NCBI GenBank assembly: GCA_905234665.1
Contig: CAJOIV010000001.1
Location: 31,150-95,149 of the forward strand
Source: an uncultured Bacteroidales bacterium
Lineage (GTDB): Bacteria; Bacteroidota; Bacteroidia; Bacteroidales; P3
Length of the DNA stretch: 64,000 bases
Reading direction: 5' to 3'
A program made the translations under genes and the position numbers. Positions 13,997-64,000 of this stretch are shown here, in pieces (the stretch's first letter is position 1; every line of letters starts with the position of its first letter). Under the pieces are notes generated by a model that saw only the letters and a program-made list of their open reading frames with translations, did not search any database and was not told where the DNA came from.

Positions 13997-14443
13997 ATTC
14001 TTTTTATTATGTGTTCCATTTCGGAACAAAAAATGTCACAATTCATAAGTTGTCGCATTATTTTGCAATAACTTGTCGGAATTCCCGACAGGTTGAACCT
14101 GTAAAATCTCCCAACAAGTTGATTTTATAACGCAGAGACCACTTTATTATTGTGTTTCCTTACAAAGAATCAACAATAGCTCTGGGAACTAATGGACTTT
14201 ATACAAATACATGCTGATGAGAATTGAGATTGGTAAGCAGACCGCCGACACTCCGTCGAGAGATCACCGAGAGATCACCCAATAATAGTGCTGTAAATCA
14301 GCATTTTGTGCACTTTATATGCAGTTTCTTGTATTCTGTTGGTTTTCAGTGGTTTTAATATTGCCACAAAGAAGGCACAAAGAACCCACACATAACCCAC
14401 GAAGTGGTATGCCTGCCGAGCATGTTGAGGCAAACCACAAACA

Positions 14444-28761: not shown

Positions 28762-29382
28762 TCAAACGGTAAAGAGGGAGTTGATTTCGGCATCAATCAT
28801 GTTGTACACCACCCCCAAATCCTCCTCGTGCGACACGAAATCGAGTTTGGTGAGGTCCACGATAATCATCTTGCCTTTGTTATATTTCTCAATCCAGTCC
28901 TCATAGCGTTTGTTGAGGCCTGTAAGGTAGTCCAGACGGATGCCGCTCTCGTACTCGCGGCCGCGGGTCTGGATGTTGCGTATCAGTGTCGGCACATCGG
29001 CACGGAGGTATATCAGCAGGTCGGGCGGCTGCAGGAACGAGGAGACCAGCTCGAAGGTGTGCTGGTAGTTATCGAAGTCGCGGGTGTTCATCAGCCCCAT
29101 GGCATGAAGATTGGGGGTAAAGATATAAGCATCCTCGTACAGCGTGCGGTCCTGGATGATATTCTTGTTCTCCTTGTGTATGTCCAGCAGCTGGCGGGTG
29201 CGGGTGTGGAGATAGTAAATCTGGATATTGAACGACCACCGGCGCATATCCTCGTAGAAACTGTTGATATAGGGGTTCGTCTCCGTGGACTCATAGATGG
29301 GGCGGTAGCCGTAATGGCGCGCCAGCATCTTTGTCAATGTGGTCTTTCCTGAGCCTATATTGCCCGCAATAGCTATATGCAT
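28762..29382 (-). CDS. Deoxynucleoside kinase
   Basis: MHIAIAGNIGSGKTTLTKMLA; DLLIYLRAD. Confidence 0.93.
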   Translation of the reverse strand: MHIAIAGNIGSGKTTLTKMLARHYGYRPIYESTETNPYINSFYEDMRRWSFNIQIYYLHTRTRQLLDIHKENKNIIQDRTLYEDAYIFTPNLHAMGLMNTRDFDNYQHTFELVSSFLQPPDLLIYLRADVPTLIRNIQTRGREYESGIRLDYLTGLNKRYEDWIEKYNKGKMIIVDLTKLDFVSHEEDLGVVYNMIDAEINSLFTV

Positions 29383-29595
29383 AACATACCCAAATTTGTC
29401 TATTATTTTGTAGCACAAAACAATAGACATTTTATAACACTATTTTATAAAAGGCAAATATACGATTTTTTTCTTAAAATTGACAACATTGTGCAAAAAA
29501 ATCCTCCTTTCCCCGTCACTGGATCCCCCTTAAAACGCCTCCAAATTTTCCCCTAACAATGATGCAATAGCGGCTTCTATCCAGTCCTAATGTTC

Positions 29596-29779
29596 TTTCG
29601 GTGTGGCTTTTATGTTCCTTTTTCCATCCTTTTACTCTTATCTTGCACATACCCAACACTTTTCCCACACTTCTCCTAAGGTACGTTAGAGAAGTGTTAG
29701 AGAAGTGTTAGAGAAACGTTAGAGAAGGACCGAAAGAACAGCGAAGGAACACAAGCGTCACATAAGAACCACACCGAAA
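29596..29779. repeat. Long imperfect palindromic element A with 11-bp tandem units (GTTAGAGAAGT)
   Basis: 11-bp terminal arms TTTCGGTGTGG/CCACACCGAAA; inner CACTTCTC vs GAGAAGTG units; colinear with 63.7-63.9 kb element B. Confidence 0.9.
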
Positions 29780-29901
29780 CCGCCCCCTGCCACCACCCAT
29801 GTCGCCGTGTGACAGAGGAATAGAAGAAAAACGGATTTTGGATACGCCATATTCAGATTTTTTTTGTATCTTTGCAAGATATTTTCCGCAACACAAACGA
29901 T

Positions 29902-32900
29902 ATGGCAAGCACGTATAAAGCATTTAGAGAGAATATTAAGACTATCACCCACTACTATTTGCTGCTGGTGGAGGAGACGAAATCGCAGCGGTTGGTGGGC
30001 AGCACCAACGAATGGGTGCTGGACAACTACTATATGCTCAGCGAGCAGGAGAAAGTGATGAAGGAGGACCTCCGGGGACGCGAGTTCCGGCGCATTGACA
30101 GCCGACGCATACAGCAGTTGCAACAGCTGCTGACCGGATTTCTGCAGAAGAGCCACCACCAAATCGACAAGAAGCTGCTGTTCCGTTACCTGAGCCAAGT
30201 GCAGGTGAAACAGCACGACTACCTGACCTATCCCGAAGTATGCGCCTTGCTGCCGCTTATCAAACACATCCTAATCCAGGAACTGGCCGACTTGTGCCGC
30301 CAACTGGAAGAGGCTCACGCCTACCACTACTCCCCCACCGACAAGAAATTGGCCGACATGGAGCACCTCAACGAGGCGGCGGGGCAGAACCTGATGATGA
30401 TGAACATCTTCAATTCGCTGAAGAAGATGACGAAACTGCCGATGGCGGAGTTGCTGGATGCCGTGAGTTTCTCGGAGCGGATGCTGAAGAGCGAGAAGGC
30501 GGGGATGTACGACCAGATGTACGACAAAACGAAAGACGACTACCGCGCCAAGATTGTCCGCATGGCCAAGAGGCGGAAGATGAAAGAGTACGACCTGGTG
30601 AAGGAGGTGGTGGAGAAGGCTGACGGGAGGGAGGAGCACGTAGGTTGGCAGTTGTTCCCGCCGAAACGGTGGAACGCGCGTGCCCACTGGTATGTGTGGA
30701 TTGTGGCGCTGGCCTCGCTGCTATTGTCGACCCTCTTTGCCTGCGGCGCCACATGGGGCGGTTTTTCATGGGTCACCGCCTTGATAACTGTGCTGATGCT
30801 GGTACCGATGAGCCAGGTGGTGATAGACCTCTTCAACCAGCTGCTGTACAGGATACACAAGCCCGTGAACACTTTCAAGATAAAGTTCAAGGACGGCCTC
30901 ATCCCCAAGGAGTACGCCACGATGGTCATCATGCCCACCATACTGAAGAACAAGGCGAAGACGGTGGAGTTGCTGGAGCAGCTGGAGGTATATTATCTGA
31001 GCAACATCAACCGCGCGAGCGAGGGGCAGCGACTGGAGAGCCGCCCGCAGAACCTCTACTACACCCTTATCGGCGACGCCGCGGCGTACAAAGAGGCCGA
31101 CGCCCCATGGGATGACGAGGTGGTGGAAGCGGGATTGGAGAAGGTGAAGGAGCTGAACGAGAGATACGGTGCACCGATATTCAACTTCGTCTATCGCCGC
31201 CGCGCCTGGAGCGAGGGGGAGCGGACCTGGCTGGGGCACGAGCGCAAACGCGGAGCCATCCTGCACTTCAACGACTTGGTGTTGGGACAGACCTCTGAGG
31301 CGGAAAGGGAGAGACGTTTCCGCTGCGAGACCCTCACGGAATGGAAGAGGGGCGTGAACGGATATAGGGGTCCGGACGACTGCCCGATACAGTTCATCAT
31401 CACGCTGGACACGGACACGGAGCTGGTGCTCTATTCGGCACAGAAGCTGATCGGGGCGATGGCGCACCCGCTGAACCGGGCGCGTCTGAGTGCCGACGGC
31501 CGGAGGGTGGATGCGGGCTACGGCATCATGCAGCCGAGGGTGAACGTGGATGTGGAGGTGACTAACAAGAGCCGTTACGCGCAGCTGTTTGCCGGCCTGG
31601 GCGGACTGGATGTCTACACGACGGCGAGCTTCGAGCTGTATCAGGATATCTTCAACGAGGGTTCGTTCTGCGGCAAGGGCATCTATGACCTGCGCGTGTT
31701 CCAGCAGGTGCTGAAGGGCACGTTTCCGGAGAACCTGATATTGAGCCACGACTTGATCGAGGGCTGCCACATCCGCTGCGGCCTCATCAACGACCTGGAA
31801 CTGTTTGACGACAACCCCTCGAACTATATTGACGACGCCAAAAGGCACCACCGCTGGACGCGCGGCGACTGGCAGATTATAGGCTGGCTGAAGAGGAGGG
31901 TGCGCAACGAGAGGGGCGAAAGGGTGAAGAACCAGGTGAACACGATAGGCCGCTGGAAGATATTCGACAACTTGCGCCGGAGCGTGCTGAGCCTGGCGGT
32001 GATGGTGATGATCCTTGCAGGGTATGTCAACGCCACTGGCACAGGCTATTGCAGTATGCATATCAGCCCTGCGTGGTACATCCTGGCGGCGTTCATCGTG
32101 GTGGCCAGCCCGATTGTCTTCTTCATCCTCGGACAGATTACGAAGCTGCCCTCCTTCGGCAAACGATACCACTATTACGCCACCCTGATCCGCGGCTTCA
32201 GGGTGATCATCTATCGTTCCCTCGTCCAGTTCGCCCTGTTGCCGAAGGAGGCGTGGATGTACACGGACGCGGCGGTGCGGGCCTGCTGGCGCATGTGGGT
32301 GAGCCACCACGACTTGCTGGCATGGATTACGAGCGACGAGGCGGCCAAGAGCACGAAAGGCACGCTGGGCGACTACCTCGGGAAATTCTGGTTCAACTAT
32401 GTATGCGCCATTGCCCTCGCGCTGCTGACTGGTATGATGCTCAACAACCGCAGTGGGATGGCCCCCGCGGACATCATGGCCGTCATCGCTTCAGCGCTCG
32501 CTTGCGTGGTGTGGTGTGCCGCGCCGTTGCTCATGTTCTGGCTGGGCAAGAAATTCCCGCAGAACAAGAAGCACCTCACCGAGAAAGAGACCGCCGAGGT
32601 GCGCCGACTGGCCCAGGACACCTGGCACTTCTTCGACAGCCTGCTGACGGAAGAGAAGCACTGGCTCATCCCGGACAACTACCAGCTGAACCGCGAACAG
32701 AAGACGGACTACAAGACCTCGCCGACGAATATCGGTTACTCGCTCACCGCCGTTGTGAGCGCCGCCGAACTGGGATTCATCACCTCGAGAGAGGCCCTCT
32801 CGCGCATCGGTCATATCGTCGACACCGTCGGGCGGCTGGAGAAATGGAACGGCCATCTGTACAACTGGTACGACCTCCAATCCCTCAACAAGTTGCCCAA

Positions 32901-35900
32901 CTATTTTGTAAGCACTTGTGACAGCGGTAATTTCATCGCCTGCCTATATGTCGTGAAAGGGTGGCTCACCGACCTGCCGGACCCTTCCGAACTCTCCGAG
33001 ACCATTCTCAACAAGGTCAATCACCTGATTGTGCAGACGGACTTCATGAAACTCTACAATCCCGAGCTGGATGTCTTCAGCATCGGCTACGATAGCGGCA
33101 GCCACACCCTCCTGCCCTACCACTACAACAACTTCGCCTCGGAGGCGCGCCTCACCTCGTTCCTCACCATCGCCCAGGGGGACGCCCCGTACAAGCACTG
33201 GTTCTGTCTCGACAAAACCCTGGTGCAGTACAAGGGGTACAAGGGGGTGGCCTCATGGTATGGCACTCTGTTTGAGTACTTCATGCCCCTTATCTTCCTG
33301 CCCACCTACAAGCACACGCTGATGGACGAAACCTACAATTTCGCCATCCGCGCCCAACGGGCCTTTATCAAAAACACGCTCAAGCAATCAAACACCCAGA
33401 CAAGCCGCCAAATCCTCCCGTGGGGAATATCCGAGACTGCCTACAACGAACTCGACGACGCACAGAACTACAAATACCACGCCTTCGGTGTGCCATACCT
33501 GAAATTCCAGAACACCACTCCCGACCGCATTGTCATCTCGCCCTACAGTTCGCTGATGGCCATCGGTGTGGACGACCGCGCTGTATACGACAACATTCAG
33601 CAGCTCAAGCAGCTGGATATGTACTCACCCGCCACAGAGGGCGGCTTCGGCTTCTTCGAGAGCTACGACGAGGAGGACCACGTGCCGGTGAAAGCGCACT
33701 ACGCACACCACCAAGGCATGATACTGGCCTCGCTGGCCAACTATCTCGGCGAGCGCTGCCTGCAGCGGTACTTCATGCAGGAACCCGCCATGCGCTCCAT
33801 GGAAACCCTCCTGAAGGAAAAAGCGCAGGTAAAGCCATATATCGACCTGAAAGTCACGCAGTACAAGCGCTACCGCTACTCGAAGGTGCAGACGGAGAGC
33901 GACGCCCGCGATTTCGACACCATCGCCAACGTGCCCGAAATCGGGGTCATCAGCAACGGCCAATACACCGTGCTCCTCAACGACCGCGGAAGCGGCTTCT
34001 CGCGCTACCGCAACATACTCCTCAACCGCTACCGGAAAATCAGTTCCGACCACTACGGCACCTATCTCTACATCCGCGACCTGCGCAGCGACCGCCTGTG
34101 GTGCGGTACCTACGCCCCGCTCGACGTCATGCCCGAAAGCTACCACGTGAGCTTCGCCAGCGACAAGATAAGCTACCTCCGTGTGGACGAAGACATTGAA
34201 ACCAAAACCGAGATTACTGTCCTGAAAGACCGAAGCGCCGAGATTCGCCGCTTCACATTCACCAACAAGGGCACCCTCGACATCGACCTCGAGATTACCT
34301 CCTACGGCGAGGTGGTACTGGCGCCCTCCGAGGAGGACGAGAACCACCGCGTGTTTGCCGGCATGAAGGTGTTCTCGGAATACGACCCCGAGCACGAGGT
34401 GCTCCTGTTCAGCCGCCCGGGCGCCCACGACACCCGCCACTTCATGATTCACAGCCTGTGGGTCTCCGAGCCCACCGACACTGACAGCGGCGCGGAATGG
34501 AACAACCTCGTGGAATACGAAACATCGCGACTGAAATTCCTCGGCCGCGGCGGAAGCCTGCTCCACGCCGACATCATCGAGAGCCACCGCACCCTCACCG
34601 GCACCGTGGGCACCACCCTGGACCCCGTGATGAGCATGCGTCGCCGGCTCCACATCCCCGCGGGAAAGAGCACCGAAGCCTACCTGCTTACCGGCTTCGC
34701 CAAAGCCCGCGAGCAACTCCTTCAGCTCGCCGAACAGTACCACACCCCCGGCGACATCGAGCACGCTTTCAAGACCGCCTCGGTGTTCAACAACATGCGC
34801 ACCAGCATGTCCCTCCTCAAAGGCTCCCAGATGCGCCTCTACAGCAGCATCTCGAAATACATGGCCCAGACGGCCACCCTCGGAAACAAACGCAACGACC
34901 TGCTCGCCAAGAACACACTCTCCCAAAGTGGCCTGTGGCGCTTCGGCATCAGCGGCGACCTGGCCATCCTGCTCATGGAAATCGACAACCCCGAATACAT
35001 AGGGTTCGCCAAGGAAATGCTGCGTGCCTTTGAATATTTCAAGGTCCACGGCCTCCGACTCGACCTCGTCTTCATCAACGACGTGAAAGAGGGCACCAAG
35101 GAACGCGACGGCCTCACCCACTTCATCCGCAATATGGCCAACACCGAGCACCTCTGGGCCGAACACACCGACGCCGGCCACGTCTACGTGCTCAACGGCG
35201 AGGAACTGTCCGATGCCGAACGCACCCTCCTGCACGTCGTGGCGCGCCTCTCCTTCAACACCCGCGAGGGTATCACCATCGCACAGCAGCTGCGACGACT
35301 CGAGATTGCCAACCAGCACTACCAAGACAAGGTCGAGTACCCTGTCCTGCAACCCAAGAAGGAGTTCCGCGTGTGGAGCGGCCTCGACTTCTACAACCAG
35401 TATGGCGGCTTCGACAACAACGGCCACGACTACGTCGTCACCAACACCAACACCCCCATGCCCTGGGTAAACGTCATTGCCAACAGCTTTGACGTCGGCG
35501 GCCAAAGTGGAGCCAACGTCAAAGATGTCTTCGGTTGCGTCGTCAGCTCCACCATGGCCGGATTCACCTTTGCACACAACGCCCAGCAGTTCAAACTCAC
35601 CAGCTGGAGCAACGACATCGTGCGCGACAACGCCAGCGAGATGCTCCTCATCGACGGCCACCAGTTCGTACCCGCCACCGCGCGCCACGGACAGGGCTTC
35701 TCCGCCTTCGACGCCGACTACGACGACATCAGTGTCAAGGTGCGACTCTTCGTCGCCACCGACCGCCCGGAGAAATACTACCAGATTGCCGTCCAAAACA
35801 AATGCGACGACGAGCGGGAAGTGCAAATCGGCATGGCCTTCAAGCTGGTCTTGGGCCTCTGCGAGGAGCAGACCGCCCGCTACCTGCACTCCGAGTGGAA

Positions 35901-37704
35901 CCCCGACGCCAACACCCTCCGCGTCCGCAATGTCTACCACCCCATCTACCGCGACACCACGCTCCGCATCACCGCCACCGAACCCCTCTCCGACATCTCC
36001 CTCCAATACCCCAACCGCAAGCGGCTCGGCACCCTCCTCCGCATCCCTGCCAAGGGAGAAAAGGAACTCGCCTTCATCCTCGCCGTCGACAGCGGTACCG
36101 AAACCCACACCTCCACTCCCACCATCCACTCCATCCACGACGAATTCTCCCGCGTGCTCGCCTATTGGGACGAGAAACTCGGCCACATCCAGGTCGAAAC
36201 CCCCGACCGCAGCCTTAACTACATGCTCAACCGCTGGTACCTCTATCAAGTCTATTCCTCGCGTCTCTTCGCCCGCGCCGGCTTCTACCAAGTCGGCGGC
36301 GCCACCGGCTTCCGCGACCAACTTCAGGACGTGATGAGCATCCTCTACAGCGACCCCGACTACGCCCGCCGGCAGATTCTCGACCACGCCGCGCACCAGT
36401 TCACCGAAGGCGACGTCCTCCACTGGTGGCACGAAAGCCTACACCTCGGCGCCCGCACCACCTTCAGCGACGACTACCTCTGGCTACCCTTCGTCACTTA
36501 CCAATACATCTCCGTCACCGGCGACACCGATATCCTCTCCGAGCAGGTCCCCTTCTGCCAAGGCGACCGCCTTGCCTCTGGCGAGGCCGAACGCGGCATC
36601 AACTACCGCTCCGGCCAACCCCTCGCCGCCACCGACCACGCCAACCCCGACTTCGAATATGCCACCCTATACGAACACCTCCGCCGCGCCATCAACCGCG
36701 CCATGGCCCGCACCGGCGCCCACGGCCTGCCTCTTATGGGCTGCGGCGACTGGAACGATGGTATGTCCCACGTCGGTGTCCAAGGCCGCGGCGAGAGCGT
36801 CTGGGTCGCCTTCTTCCTCGCCGACCTCCTCCCCAAGATGGAACACCTCACCGCCCTGATGCCCAACGCCGACCTCTCCTACTGCGAAGAACTCTCCAAC
36901 TTCCGCAAACGCATCGTCCTCGCCCTCCAGCATAACGCATGGGACGGCGCATGGTTCCTCCGCGCTTTCTACGACAACGGCGACCCCATGGGCAGCCGCA
37001 ACAACACCGAATGCCAAATCGACCTCATCAGCCAGGCCTGGAGCATCCTCACCGACGTGGCAACTCCCGAACAGAAGCAGAGCGTCATGCGCGAGACCGA
37101 CAACCGGCTGGTCAACCGCGAACACGAAATCATCCAACTCCTCACCCCTCCTTTCGTCCGCAATAACGGCGACCCCGCACAGAGCGACCGCCACAACCCG
37201 GGCTACATCGCCAACTATCCCCCCGGCGTCCGCGAAAACGGCGGCCAATACACCCACGGCGCCATGTGGTACATCATGGCACAACTCAAAGAGGGCCGCT
37301 ACGATATGGCCTACTTCCTCTACTCGCTCATCAACCCCGTCCATCGCACACAGACCCTCGCCGACGTACTCAAATACAAAGTCGAACCCTACTGCATCGC
37401 CGCCGATATCTACAGCAACCCGCAGCACCCTGGCCGCGGCGGCTGGACATGGTACACCGGCTCCGCCTCATGGGCCTACAAAACCGGTATCGAAAACATC
37501 CTCGGTCTCCACAAGCAAGGAGACCGCATCACCCTCGACCCCCGGGTGCCCACCGACTGGGAATCCTTCACCATCCGCTACCGCCACGGCGCCAGCACCT
37601 ACCTCATCCAATACGAGCGTGGCGCTACCCGTGAAACGACATCTGCACCAACCACGATAGAACTCATCGACGACGGCCAGCAACACGTCATCGTCATCCA
37701 CTGA
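29902..37704 (+). CDS. Cyclic beta-1,2-glucan synthase-like giant protein (GT84 + TM + glycoamylase-like + GH94)
   Basis: FIITLDTDTEL, RHHRWTRGDWQIIGWL (GT), TM clusters, GH94-like MGCGDWNDGMSHVGVQGRGESVW; 2600 aa. Confidence 0.88.
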   Translation: MASTYKAFRENIKTITHYYLLLVEETKSQRLVGSTNEWVLDNYYMLSEQEKVMKEDLRGREFRRIDSRRIQQLQQLLTGFLQKSHHQIDKKLLFRYLSQVQVKQHDYLTYPEVCALLPLIKHILIQELADLCRQLEEAHAYHYSPTDKKLADMEHLNEAAGQNLMMMNIFNSLKKMTKLPMAELLDAVSFSERMLKSEKAGMYDQMYDKTKDDYRAKIVRMAKRRKMKEYDLVKEVVEKADGREEHVGWQLFPPKRWNARAHWYVWIVALASLLLSTLFACGATWGGFSWVTALITVLMLVPMSQVVIDLFNQLLYRIHKPVNTFKIKFKDGLIPKEYATMVIMPTILKNKAKTVELLEQLEVYYLSNINRASEGQRLESRPQNLYYTLIGDAAAYKEADAPWDDEVVEAGLEKVKELNERYGAPIFNFVYRRRAWSEGERTWLGHERKRGAILHFNDLVLGQTSEAERERRFRCETLTEWKRGVNGYRGPDDCPIQFIITLDTDTELVLYSAQKLIGAMAHPLNRARLSADGRRVDAGYGIMQPRVNVDVEVTNKSRYAQLFAGLGGLDVYTTASFELYQDIFNEGSFCGKGIYDLRVFQQVLKGTFPENLILSHDLIEGCHIRCGLINDLELFDDNPSNYIDDAKRHHRWTRGDWQIIGWLKRRVRNERGERVKNQVNTIGRWKIFDNLRRSVLSLAVMVMILAGYVNATGTGYCSMHISPAWYILAAFIVVASPIVFFILGQITKLPSFGKRYHYYATLIRGFRVIIYRSLVQFALLPKEAWMYTDAAVRACWRMWVSHHDLLAWITSDEAAKSTKGTLGDYLGKFWFNYVCAIALALLTGMMLNNRSGMAPADIMAVIASALACVVWCAAPLLMFWLGKKFPQNKKHLTEKETAEVRRLAQDTWHFFDSLLTEEKHWLIPDNYQLNREQKTDYKTSPTNIGYSLTAVVSAAELGFITSREALSRIGHIVDTVGRLEKWNGHLYNWYDLQSLNKLPNYFVSTCDSGNFIACLYVVKGWLTDLPDPSELSETILNKVNHLIVQTDFMKLYNPELDVFSIGYDSGSHTLLPYHYNNFASEARLTSFLTIAQGDAPYKHWFCLDKTLVQYKGYKGVASWYGTLFEYFMPLIFLPTYKHTLMDETYNFAIRAQRAFIKNTLKQSNTQTSRQILPWGISETAYNELDDAQNYKYHAFGVPYLKFQNTTPDRIVISPYSSLMAIGVDDRAVYDNIQQLKQLDMYSPATEGGFGFFESYDEEDHVPVKAHYAHHQGMILASLANYLGERCLQRYFMQEPAMRSMETLLKEKAQVKPYIDLKVTQYKRYRYSKVQTESDARDFDTIANVPEIGVISNGQYTVLLNDRGSGFSRYRNILLNRYRKISSDHYGTYLYIRDLRSDRLWCGTYAPLDVMPESYHVSFASDKISYLRVDEDIETKTEITVLKDRSAEIRRFTFTNKGTLDIDLEITSYGEVVLAPSEEDENHRVFAGMKVFSEYDPEHEVLLFSRPGAHDTRHFMIHSLWVSEPTDTDSGAEWNNLVEYETSRLKFLGRGGSLLHADIIESHRTLTGTVGTTLDPVMSMRRRLHIPAGKSTEAYLLTGFAKAREQLLQLAEQYHTPGDIEHAFKTASVFNNMRTSMSLLKGSQMRLYSSISKYMAQTATLGNKRNDLLAKNTLSQSGLWRFGISGDLAILLMEIDNPEYIGFAKEMLRAFEYFKVHGLRLDLVFINDVKEGTKERDGLTHFIRNMANTEHLWAEHTDAGHVYVLNGEELSDAERTLLHVVARLSFNTREGITIAQQLRRLEIANQHYQDKVEYPVLQPKKEFRVWSGLDFYNQYGGFDNNGHDYVVTNTNTPMPWVNVIANSFDVGGQSGANVKDVFGCVVSSTMAGFTFAHNAQQFKLTSWSNDIVRDNASEMLLIDGHQFVPATARHGQGFSAFDADYDDISVKVRLFVATDRPEKYYQIAVQNKCDDEREVQIGMAFKLVLGLCEEQTARYLHSEWNPDANTLRVRNVYHPIYRDTTLRITATEPLSDISLQYPNRKRLGTLLRIPAKGEKELAFILAVDSGTETHTSTPTIHSIHDEFSRVLAYWDEKLGHIQVETPDRSLNYMLNRWYLYQVYSSRLFARAGFYQVGGATGFRDQLQDVMSILYSDPDYARRQILDHAAHQFTEGDVLHWWHESLHLGARTTFSDDYLWLPFVTYQYISVTGDTDILSEQVPFCQGDRLASGEAERGINYRSGQPLAATDHANPDFEYATLYEHLRRAINRAMARTGAHGLPLMGCGDWNDGMSHVGVQGRGESVWVAFFLADLLPKMEHLTALMPNADLSYCEELSNFRKRIVLALQHNAWDGAWFLRAFYDNGDPMGSRNNTECQIDLISQAWSILTDVATPEQKQSVMRETDNRLVNREHEIIQLLTPPFVRNNGDPAQSDRHNPGYIANYPPGVRENGGQYTHGAMWYIMAQLKEGRYDMAYFLYSLINPVHRTQTLADVLKYKVEPYCIAADIYSNPQHPGRGGWTWYTGSASWAYKTGIENILGLHKQGDRITLDPRVPTDWESFTIRYRHGASTYLIQYERGATRETTSAPTTIELIDDGQQHVIVIH

Positions 37705-62020: not shown

Positions 62021-63547
62021 TTATTCCCACTCAATCGTTGCCGGGGGTTTGGAACTGATGTCGTACACCACGCGGTTGACCCCCTTGACGCGGTTGATGA
62101 TGTCGTTGGACACCTTGGCCAGGAAGTCGTAGGGCAGGTGGCTCCAGTCGGCGGTCATGCCGTCGACCGACTCCACGGCCCGCAGCGCGACGACGCTCTC
62201 ATAGGTGCGTTCGTCGCCCATCACGCCTACCGACTGAACCGGCAGCAGCATACAGCCTGCCTGCCACACCTTGTCGTACAAGCCGTAGTCGCGCAAGCCC
62301 TGCACAAAGATGTCGTCGACCTCCTGCAGGATACGCACCTTCTCGGGCGTGACATCGCTCAGTATGCGGATGGCCAGACCGGGACCCGGGAACGGATGCC
62401 GCCCGATAAGCTCGGGGGCGATGCCCAGCTGTCGGCCCACACGGCGCACCTCGTCCTTGAAAAGACTGCGCAGCGGTTCGACCAACTGCAACTTCATATA
62501 GTCGGGCAGGCCGCCCACGTTGTGGTGCGACTTGATGGTCTGCGACGGGCCCTTGACCGAACTGGACTCAATCACATCGGGATATATCGTGCCCTGGCCA
62601 AGCCATTTGGCATCGGTAATCTGTTTGGCCTCGGCATCGAAGACATCGATAAAGGTCTTGCCGATGGCTTTGCGTTTCTTCTCGGGGTCGGTCACGCCGG
62701 CCAGCACGCTGTAGAAACGCTCCTTGGCATCCACCCCTTTCACGTTCAGCCCCATGCCCTGGTAGGACTTGAGCACATTCTCGAACTCGTTCTTGCGCAA
62801 CAACCCGTTGTCCACAAAGATGCAGTGCAGCCGATGGCCAATGGCTTTGTTGAGCAACACGGCGGCCACGGTGGAGTCCACACCGCCCGAAAGGCCCAAC
62901 ACCACCTTGTCGTCACCCACTTTCTCACGCAGGGCGGCCACGGTGGTCTCGACAAACGACTCGGGAGTCCACGACTGGTCGCAGCCGCAGATGTCCACCA
63001 CGAAATTGCGCAGCAGCTGCAGGCCGTCGACCGAGTGGTGCACCTCGGGATGAAACTGGATGGCATAGGTAGGTTCGCCCTCGATTTGGTAGCCGGCATA
63101 GCGCACACTGGCCGTGGAGCAGATGCAGCGGTACCCCTCGGGTACACGCTCGATGGTGTCGCCGTGGCTCATCCACACCTGGCTGCCTACGGGGACCCCT
63201 TTCATCAGCGGGTTTGCGGCATCGACAAACTGGAGGTTGGCACGGCCGTACTCGCGCGTGCCGCTCTGCTGCACACTGCCGCCGCCATACTTGGCCAGAT
63301 ACTGTGCCCCATAACACACCGCCAGCAATGGCAGACGCCCCTTGATGCCACTCATGTCGGGCACCGGCGCGTCGGGCGCGTTACAACTATAGGGGCTGCC
63401 CGAAAAAACAACGCCCTTCACCTCCTCGGTGAGGGCGGGAATCTTGTTAAACGGGTGTATTTCGCAATAAACATTGAGTTCGCGTATCTTGCGTGCGATA
63501 AGCTGAGTGTACTGAGAACCAAAGTCTAAAATGATAATAGTATCCAT
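62021..63547 (-). CDS. guaA: GMP synthase (glutamine-hydrolysing)
   Basis: [61 protein letters not shown]-terminal PPATIEWE. Confidence 0.98.
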
Positions 63548-63699
63548 AGCAGTAGGTGCTTAATAAATGGCAAAGATACGCAAAAAAATCGATATATTTA
63601 GAAATATATAAAATAAAAATATCGTTATGAGTGATTAGTGACTCGTTATTTTTTAGTTTTTACATTTTAGTTTTTAGTTTTAATCTTCTCCTAGTCGTC

Positions 63700-63882
63700 T
63701 CTCGGTGTTCCTTTTATGATCTTTCTTCCTTCCTTCGGTACTTACCCTGCTGATATTCAACTGTTCTCCCACTGTTCTCCTATCCTACGTTGGAGAACAG
63801 TTGGAGAACAGTAGGGAAACAGTTGGAGAACAACCGAAGGAACACCGAAAGAACATAAGCGTCACATAAGGACCACACCGAA
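63700..63882. repeat. Long imperfect palindromic element B with 11-bp tandem units (GTTGGAGAACA)
   Basis: Colinear with 29596-29779; shared block AAGCGTCACATAAGRACCACACCGAA; inner ACTGTTCTC vs GAGAACAGT units. Confidence 0.9.
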
Positions 63883-63920
63883 GTCACTCCCTTGTCACCC
63901 TGTGACCAAAATGTTAAAAA

Positions 63921-63952
63921 TTTGCAAGATTGAAGAATTCTGCGTACTTTTG
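63921..63952 (+). promoter_or_regulatory. Promoter for a gene beyond the right edge
   Basis: TTTG (63921-63924)-N20-TACTTTTG (63945-63952). Confidence 0.6.
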
Positions 63953-64000
63953 CAAAAATTTTTTCTCCCACACGCATCAATAATTTTATTACCCCAAAAA

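Follow-up and report, generated by a model that had tools for sequence, protein, structure and literature searches.

Intergenic palindromes of tandem 11-bp units in a Bacteroidales genus: candidate small non-autonomous mobile elements

The analyzed window, a stretch of 64,000 nucleotides from an uncultured Bacteroidales bacterium, carries two related palindromic elements, A and B, which we are inclined to regard as two copies of one family of small, non-coding, non-autonomous mobile elements special to the genus. They form part of a large class of palindromes built from tandem 11-base units that is apparently undescribed so far; no paper on 11-bp palindromic arrays in Bacteroidales was found in the open-access literature. 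The common plan comprises a pyrimidine-rich 11-bp array, a short loop and a complementary purine-rich 11-bp array, spanning ~90-200 bp in total, with a hypervariable loop triplet in several families and, where copies can be aligned, an asymmetric conserved tail. The best reading is that these are foldback/MITE-like non-autonomous elements whose palindromic architecture is selected at the level of the spreading master copies.

Structure and genomic context of copies A and B

The initial annotation described A and B as a dispersed palindromic element; both attributes were borne out, and the element is intergenic. Both copies lie where it had placed them (Table 1), are palindromic and foldable, and share 77% identity across 185 bp (BLAST, E=1e-32). 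Compared with shuffled sequences, RNA folding gave z=-6.2 for A and z=-8.8 for B, and DNA folding z=-3.3 and z=-8.5, respectively. The centre, the four direct 11-bp units and the conserved tail that it had named are present in both copies. Its statement that two base pairs are swapped in every unit was too broad: the two units pairing with the left arm show a clean AAGTG/AACAG exchange, but units 3 and 4 of A end in AC and GG. The element had not been recognized as a known transposon, and indeed no known family matched in the libraries searched.

Table 1. Features of the analyzed window
Feature	Coordinates	Strand	Evidence or remarks
Copy A, whole palindromic element, ~184 bp	29596..29779	+	terminal inverted repeat; 77% identity to B
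Copy A, terminal inverted repeat	29596-29615 / 29760-29779		20-bp ends, 90% complementary
Copy A, inner left arm, two inverted 11-bp units ACACTTTTCCC / ACACTTCTCC	29655..29676	+	
Copy A, variable loop triplet AGG within CTCCTA-NNN-TACGTT	29679..29681	+	
Copy A, four direct 11-bp units of GTTAGAGAAGT type	29685..29728	+	TRF period 11, 90% match
Copy A, conserved tail AAGCGTCACATAAGAACCACACCGAA	29753..29778	+	
Copy B, whole palindromic element	63700..63882	+	
Copy B, inner left arm ACTGTTCTCCC / ACTGTTCTCC	63760..63780	+	TRF 100% match
Copy B, loop triplet TCC	63783..63785	+	
Copy B, four direct 11-bp units of GTTGGAGAACA type	63789..63832	+	repeat search and TRF
Copy B, conserved tail AAGCGTCACATAAGGACCACACCGAA	63857..63882	+	tail search of own genome
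Longer repeated unit around B: 7-bp TTTTAGT array, element and right flank	63624..63956	+	
Left neighbour of A: deoxynucleoside kinase gene (dNK, PF01712)	28762..29430	-	E=4.5e-52
Right neighbour of A: giant 2610-aa ORF	29872..37704	+	
Promoter-like -7 box TATATTTG of dNK gene, outside element A	29455..29462	-	sequence
Promoter-like -7 box TATCTTTG of 2610-aa ORF, outside element A	29867..29874	+	sequence
Left neighbour of B: GMP synthase gene (guaA)	62021..63547	-	
Third palindromic 11-bp array, other unit family TTGTTCTTCGA / TCGAAGAACAA	2379..2482	+	lag-11 scan, TRF
Weak non-palindromic 11-bp periodic stretch	14257..14404	+	lag 11 59/110; palindrome z=-0.3

Copy A is located between divergent genes and is flanked by two outward promoter boxes; TANNTTTG is a promoter motif of Bacteroidetes. 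The 700 aa encoded by positions 29899-31999, within the 2610-aa ORF to the right of A, gave no Pfam match. Two apparent guaA genes are present in the own draft genome, one in the window and one on contig C6 (near 106158), each adjoining a different palindromic element; the second was identified by eye, from its start only, and is an apparent paralogue or contamination (5.6% of this genome).

Lag 11 is the outlier among lags 5-40 in the 64-kb window and is seen at four places, including A and B. The third palindromic array (palindrome z=14) is located in the gap that separates a sigma-70 factor gene from ffh and follows the same plan as A and B, with a Y-rich tandem array joined through a tiny loop to its R-rich tandem complement.

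Relatives of A and B

The genome that contains the window (G000) is a draft MAG, ~90% complete and 5.6% contaminated. The search with the conserved tail proposed in the initial annotation retrieved only A and B from this genome with up to 3 mismatches allowed; three further copies were found in the related MAG Red_deer_4_mag_203 (G083), at loci with different neighbours. Contig C54 of G000 terminates within an A-like palindrome, and apart from this no other ends of A or B were found in the draft genome (~90% complete). Short-read assemblies frequently break or collapse at palindromes. A weak second match, on contig C9, falls within an apparent gene.

Locus L031 is 93.5% identical to A in the core, yet its flanks are B-like, so that judging from its sequence it looks like a recombinant with an A-like core within B-like flanks. 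The longer repeated unit that surrounds B is shared with locus L030 at 87% over 345 bp and in part, up to 63907, with L031 (blastn). It shows no homology to the guaA of the window beyond its limits, and the neighbour genes of B and L030 differ. At L030 (2740-2860) and L031 (3900-4040), 8-bp-like TGATTAG and 7-bp TTTTAGT arrays stand together with the 11-bp palindrome as one dispersed unit.

Comparison of A and L031 with a further relative, L032, revealed a TA-to-CG change at unit positions 3-4 that affects each of the four direct units and, as the complement, the inner left arm, while the unit-specific last bases are unchanged. Since positions 3-4 changed jointly and the last bases were kept, simple whole-unit slippage does not explain the difference.

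Survey of 11-bp arrays in the genus

For the survey, MAGs of 13 species in the genus were partially sampled in 20-kb stretches, which gave 1.66 Mb (863 kb from the own genome); genes were called with a home-made codon-model caller, and an array was defined by at least 33/55 matches at lag 11. Such arrays were identified in 60 of 838 intergenic regions, in none of 1349 genes and in none of the shuffled regions. The same 838 regions yielded 5, 7 and 0 arrays at lags 10, 12 and 13, and 14, 19 and 11 at the shorter lags 7, 8 and 9, respectively. At an identical threshold, ~860 kb of the genus contained 36 lag-11 windows, whereas 400 kb sampled in five further families of the order contained none.

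Strong palindromes (z>5) were found among 28 of the 60 lag-11 arrays versus 4 of 100 other regions. These 28 span about a dozen unit types, the array at 2379-2482 among them, whereas the 7- and 8-bp arrays, with a median palindrome z of ~1, are not palindromic as a group. Unit sequences are highly unlike (TTCGATTGTTC, GTTATATTATA, GGTAGTATTAC, GTTCTTTTACT, TTGTCCGATAG and others), often with several families per genome, and crude clustering distinguished 32 unit groups among the 60 arrays. The class with many copies that the initial annotation had anticipated, with arms that vary between families and are complementary internally, thus exists.

Two other kinds of array were noted. Genome G001 carries one-sided 11-bp arrays of unit GAAGAACAACC with a conserved CCCTA end (L181, L187, L193, L196, L199, L202 and L205), possibly an ancestral or decayed form. 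Many genomes of the genus (L054, L040, L041, L050 and others) contain 9-bp arrays (AATGCGTTA / AATGTGTGA) and 11-bp CCGAAGGATCA units fused into long intergenic mosaics.

Copy number and presence or absence at orthologous loci

In the own draft genome the U1 family is represented by at least 14 copies, and in the sister species G029, whose genome is 97% complete, by at least 132 (132 exact centre matches in 2.1 Mb; reversed-pattern control, 0). Across the order, the U1 pattern was found in one of 295 genomes (185 genera), namely G000. The number of units differs between copies. The G029 elements (L302-type) carry a one-sided degenerate tail of ~90 bp, GACGG..TTGATGCCTT..CTGGTTTTCAG..CATAA, which is far less conserved than the core and whose direction agrees with the loop orientation in the checked copies.

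At three loci whose flanking genes on either side are orthologous, G000 carries an array and G083 none; the array at 2379-2482, for example, is missing from the orthologous sigma factor-ffh gap. The empty G083 sites are not clean excisions, as the entire gap differs, and deletion in G083 could be an alternative. No target-site duplication was found in gaps too diverged to fix the exact borders, and no autonomous partner or transposase was found for the arrays. Taken together, the restriction of lag-11 arrays to intergenic regions, their palindromic structure, their high copy number and their absence at syntenic G083 loci indicate dispersed, mobile-like intergenic elements.

A phage or plasmid origin was rejected, as the G029 core had no match in 50,697 phage records, copy A had none in 72,556 plasmid records and IMG/VR gave no tail match.

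Position relative to genes and promoters

All 25 G029 copies found in 400 kb are intergenic (about 91 gaps there are at least 130 bp long). At 25 elements per 400 kb, they are so frequent that they influence intergenic DNA as well as assemblies and strain typing in this gut/rumen genus. In the 13-species sample, divergent gaps hold 15 of 28 palindromic arrays, whereas of the other large gaps 79 of 328 are divergent (Fisher p=0.0014, related copies being counted as independent in this as in the other tests); in G000 the proportion is 9/13. The excess is not seen in G029 (9/25). In 9 of 11 gaps between genes of the same direction, the array is separated from the downstream gene by a TANNTTTG box, and in these gaps no such box is located within the array. 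This placement outside promoter boxes, in the 9 of 11 gaps and at A, speaks against a general role as leader or terminator RNA.

Complementarity of the arms and variability of the loop

Compensatory base changes are usually taken as proof of a selected structure. The hundreds of natural copies available here separate complementarity at the level of the family from maintenance copy by copy. Among A, B, L030, L031 and L032, both sides of 12 of 71 pairs have changed without loss of pairing, and complementarity is therefore preserved between unit types. Within unit types the differences are mostly one-sided: columns 94, 104 and 157-158, for example, distinguish the close relatives B and L030, with the partners unchanged.

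The same was observed in larger sets. Among 11 U1 copies of G000, an arm matched the opposite arm of its own copy at 34.7 and those of other copies at 35.3 of 46 positions (permutation p=0.95). In 19 G029 copies the own-arm and other-arm values are equal (p=1.0), because all variable arm sites are confined to one arm; the right arm is invariant although the flanks diverge, which suggests a sequence-specific constraint as well. The internally complementary arms postulated by the initial annotation are thus found between families and unit types but are not maintained copy by copy within families, and its proposal of compensatory selection, or templating in cis, acting on each hairpin is not supported in view of the two permutations and the uncompensated B-L030 changes. 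Complementarity is an inherited family property, not one maintained per copy, and the exchange between A and B is more readily understood as the replacement of one unit sequence by another at the level of the family.

The loop is the most variable part. In G029, where the loop reads CGAT-NNN-AATCG, 14 distinct five-base centres occur among the 50 copies listed, and the diversity (pi) is 0.565 for the triplet, 0.027 for the arms and 0.27-0.46 for the outer 22 bp. The central triplet of the A/B family varies likewise (AGG in A, AGA in L031, TCC in B and TCT in L030), as does the loop centre of U1 in G000. The triplet ACA recurs within one subfamily. Loops are heritable but change much faster than the arms.

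Comparison with known systems

Foldback (FB) elements of Drosophila, which are eukaryotic and kilobase-sized, have inverted arms of short tandem repeats. The 11-bp elements share this arrangement, and no relation to Drosophila FB is claimed. Integron attC sites are hairpins with a conserved structure and a variable sequence; they are not known to be 11-bp arrays, and no gene cassettes were seen with the elements described here.

Copy A is short (184 bp) and non-coding and has terminal inverted repeats (20-bp ends, 90% complementary), as expected of a MITE, and the class is dispersed, with presence/absence at orthologous loci (three empty gaps). The nearest known relative is the BrickBuilt MITE of Porphyromonas gingivalis (PMC4596501). 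It is likewise a Bacteroidales, exclusively intergenic, MITE-like element with a tandem minisatellite and predicted long stem-loops, and has a leader, a tail and small inverted ends (PMC4596501). However, the units of BrickBuilt are 23 nt long, one strain has 19 copies, the length reaches ~1 kb, and the element was found in a single species (PMC4596501), whereas the period here is 11 and the elements have mutually inverted arms, many unit families, a genus-wide distribution, at least 132 copies and a length of 90-200 bp.

REP/BIME sequences with RAYT are also high-copy intergenic palindromes with several families per genome (PMC3733652). REPs are 20-40 bp long, are tagged by GTAG or CGTC and occur mostly in gaps flanked by unidirectional or convergent genes (PMC3733652), in contrast to the 90-200 bp of the 11-bp elements, the lack of RAYT in the richest genome and the divergent-gap excess in the 13-species sample. 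The 11-bp elements thus lack the defining features of REPs and BrickBuilt and show the general features of MITEs, except that neither a duplication nor an autonomous partner was found, in diverged gaps and a ~90% complete draft genome, respectively.

Yeast mitochondrial GC clusters and double-hairpin elements resemble them in being short, high-copy and palindromic and in their presence/absence between relatives; they have conserved stems, variable loops and an unknown mover (PMC4478555). They differ in being organellar and 42 nt long, without 11-bp tandem units, and in the target-site duplications proposed for them (PMC4478555). TAACTGA heptamer arrays of Beggiatoaceae, Cyanobacteria and Bacteroidetes are, similarly, intergenic short tandem repeats missing in the gaps of close relatives, but consist of 7-bp direct repeats of fixed sequence and are not palindromic (PMC4679880).

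Proposed mechanism and alternative explanations

We propose that copies spread as hairpin-forming DNA (or as an RNA copy) with the help of a machinery acting in trans, which would recognize the outline of the hairpin or cruciform and the 11-bp lattice, each unit making roughly one turn of the helix, and not a fixed sequence. Only master copies still able to fold would continue spreading, hence every family would be complementary; inserted copies would drift without compensation, and uncoupled arms within families are what is expected of drifting copies. Slippage or template switching between units and arms may renew the unit sequence of one family after another. The preference for gaps between transcription units and outside promoters would be explained if insertions that disrupt a gene or promoter are selected against. 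More tentatively, and as a possibility short of a probable one, we suggest that many families with unrelated unit sequences share one machinery that reads shape and the 11-bp lattice, with palindromy kept via the masters and the loop triplet outpacing the arms. If one machinery does move all families, an element recognized by helical periodicity and shape would be new. Against this reading stand the failure to find a target-site duplication, an autonomous partner or a transposase, the lack of clean empty sites, the one-sidedness of some arrays (e.g. in G001), the joint change of unit positions 3-4 between A/L031 and L032, and the invariant right arm of the 19 G029 copies.

The alternative that survives best, though we consider it rather unlikely, is that the arrays are immobile and functionless products of local mutation, i.e. 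intergenic minisatellites growing in 11-bp steps that become palindromic by template switching during replication. Template switching is documented for inverted repeats elsewhere, where it homogenizes the arms, inverts spacers and makes hairpins (PMC8604942, PMC8794818). The occurrence of 7-, 8- and 9-bp intergenic arrays in the genus and the copy-to-copy differences in unit number are in line with such growth, as is the share of palindromes in divergent gaps, where negative supercoils gather (15/28 versus 27% expected, p=0.003). However, identical unit families with shared tails recur at many unrelated loci of one genome, the arms of a single copy are not homogenized with each other within families, and the 7- and 8-bp arrays as a group lack palindromy.

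It is less likely still that the elements are binding arrays for a family of regulators or nucleoid proteins, contacting one helix face every 11 bp, with unit sequences that track the specificity of paralogues. The invariant right arm of the G029 copies, the joint change of positions 3-4 between A/L031 and L032, and the location outside promoters with enrichment in divergent gaps agree with this idea. It does not account well for very different units within one genome, for the absence of arrays from orthologous gaps beside the same housekeeping genes (e.g. sigma factor-ffh) or for the lack of a divergent-gap excess in G029.

A structured RNA or transcription terminator with pairing selected in RNA, a reading along the line of the initial annotation, appears improbable. 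It draws on the very stable folds and the two-sided changes in 12 of 71 pairs among five copies, but A, the 2379 array and many others lie between divergent genes and outside recognizable promoters, and variation within families is uncompensated. No Rfam covariance model exceeded its gathering score, and the sub-threshold matches were nearly all microRNA precursors, which is what any long hairpin yields. An intrinsic terminator (a GC-rich stem with a T run at a gene 3' end) was rejected for A, since no such site is present there and A separates divergent genes.

Mobilization as REP sequences by RAYT (Y1) transposases is very improbable, and RAYT is excluded as a general mobilizer: several of the genus's genomes do contain such genes, surrounded by repeats, but there is no PF01797 match in G029, with its at least 132 copies, or in G083, and the genes checked are flanked by other, unrelated palindromes. 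The RAYT (Y1_Tnp) genes L274 (G000 C8:52377-52718) and L271 (G073 C2:174109-174450) are situated amid dense REP arrays of their own (GCGTGCCTCCGGCACGC; GACCCCGTAGGGGTC), which are unrelated to the 11-bp elements.
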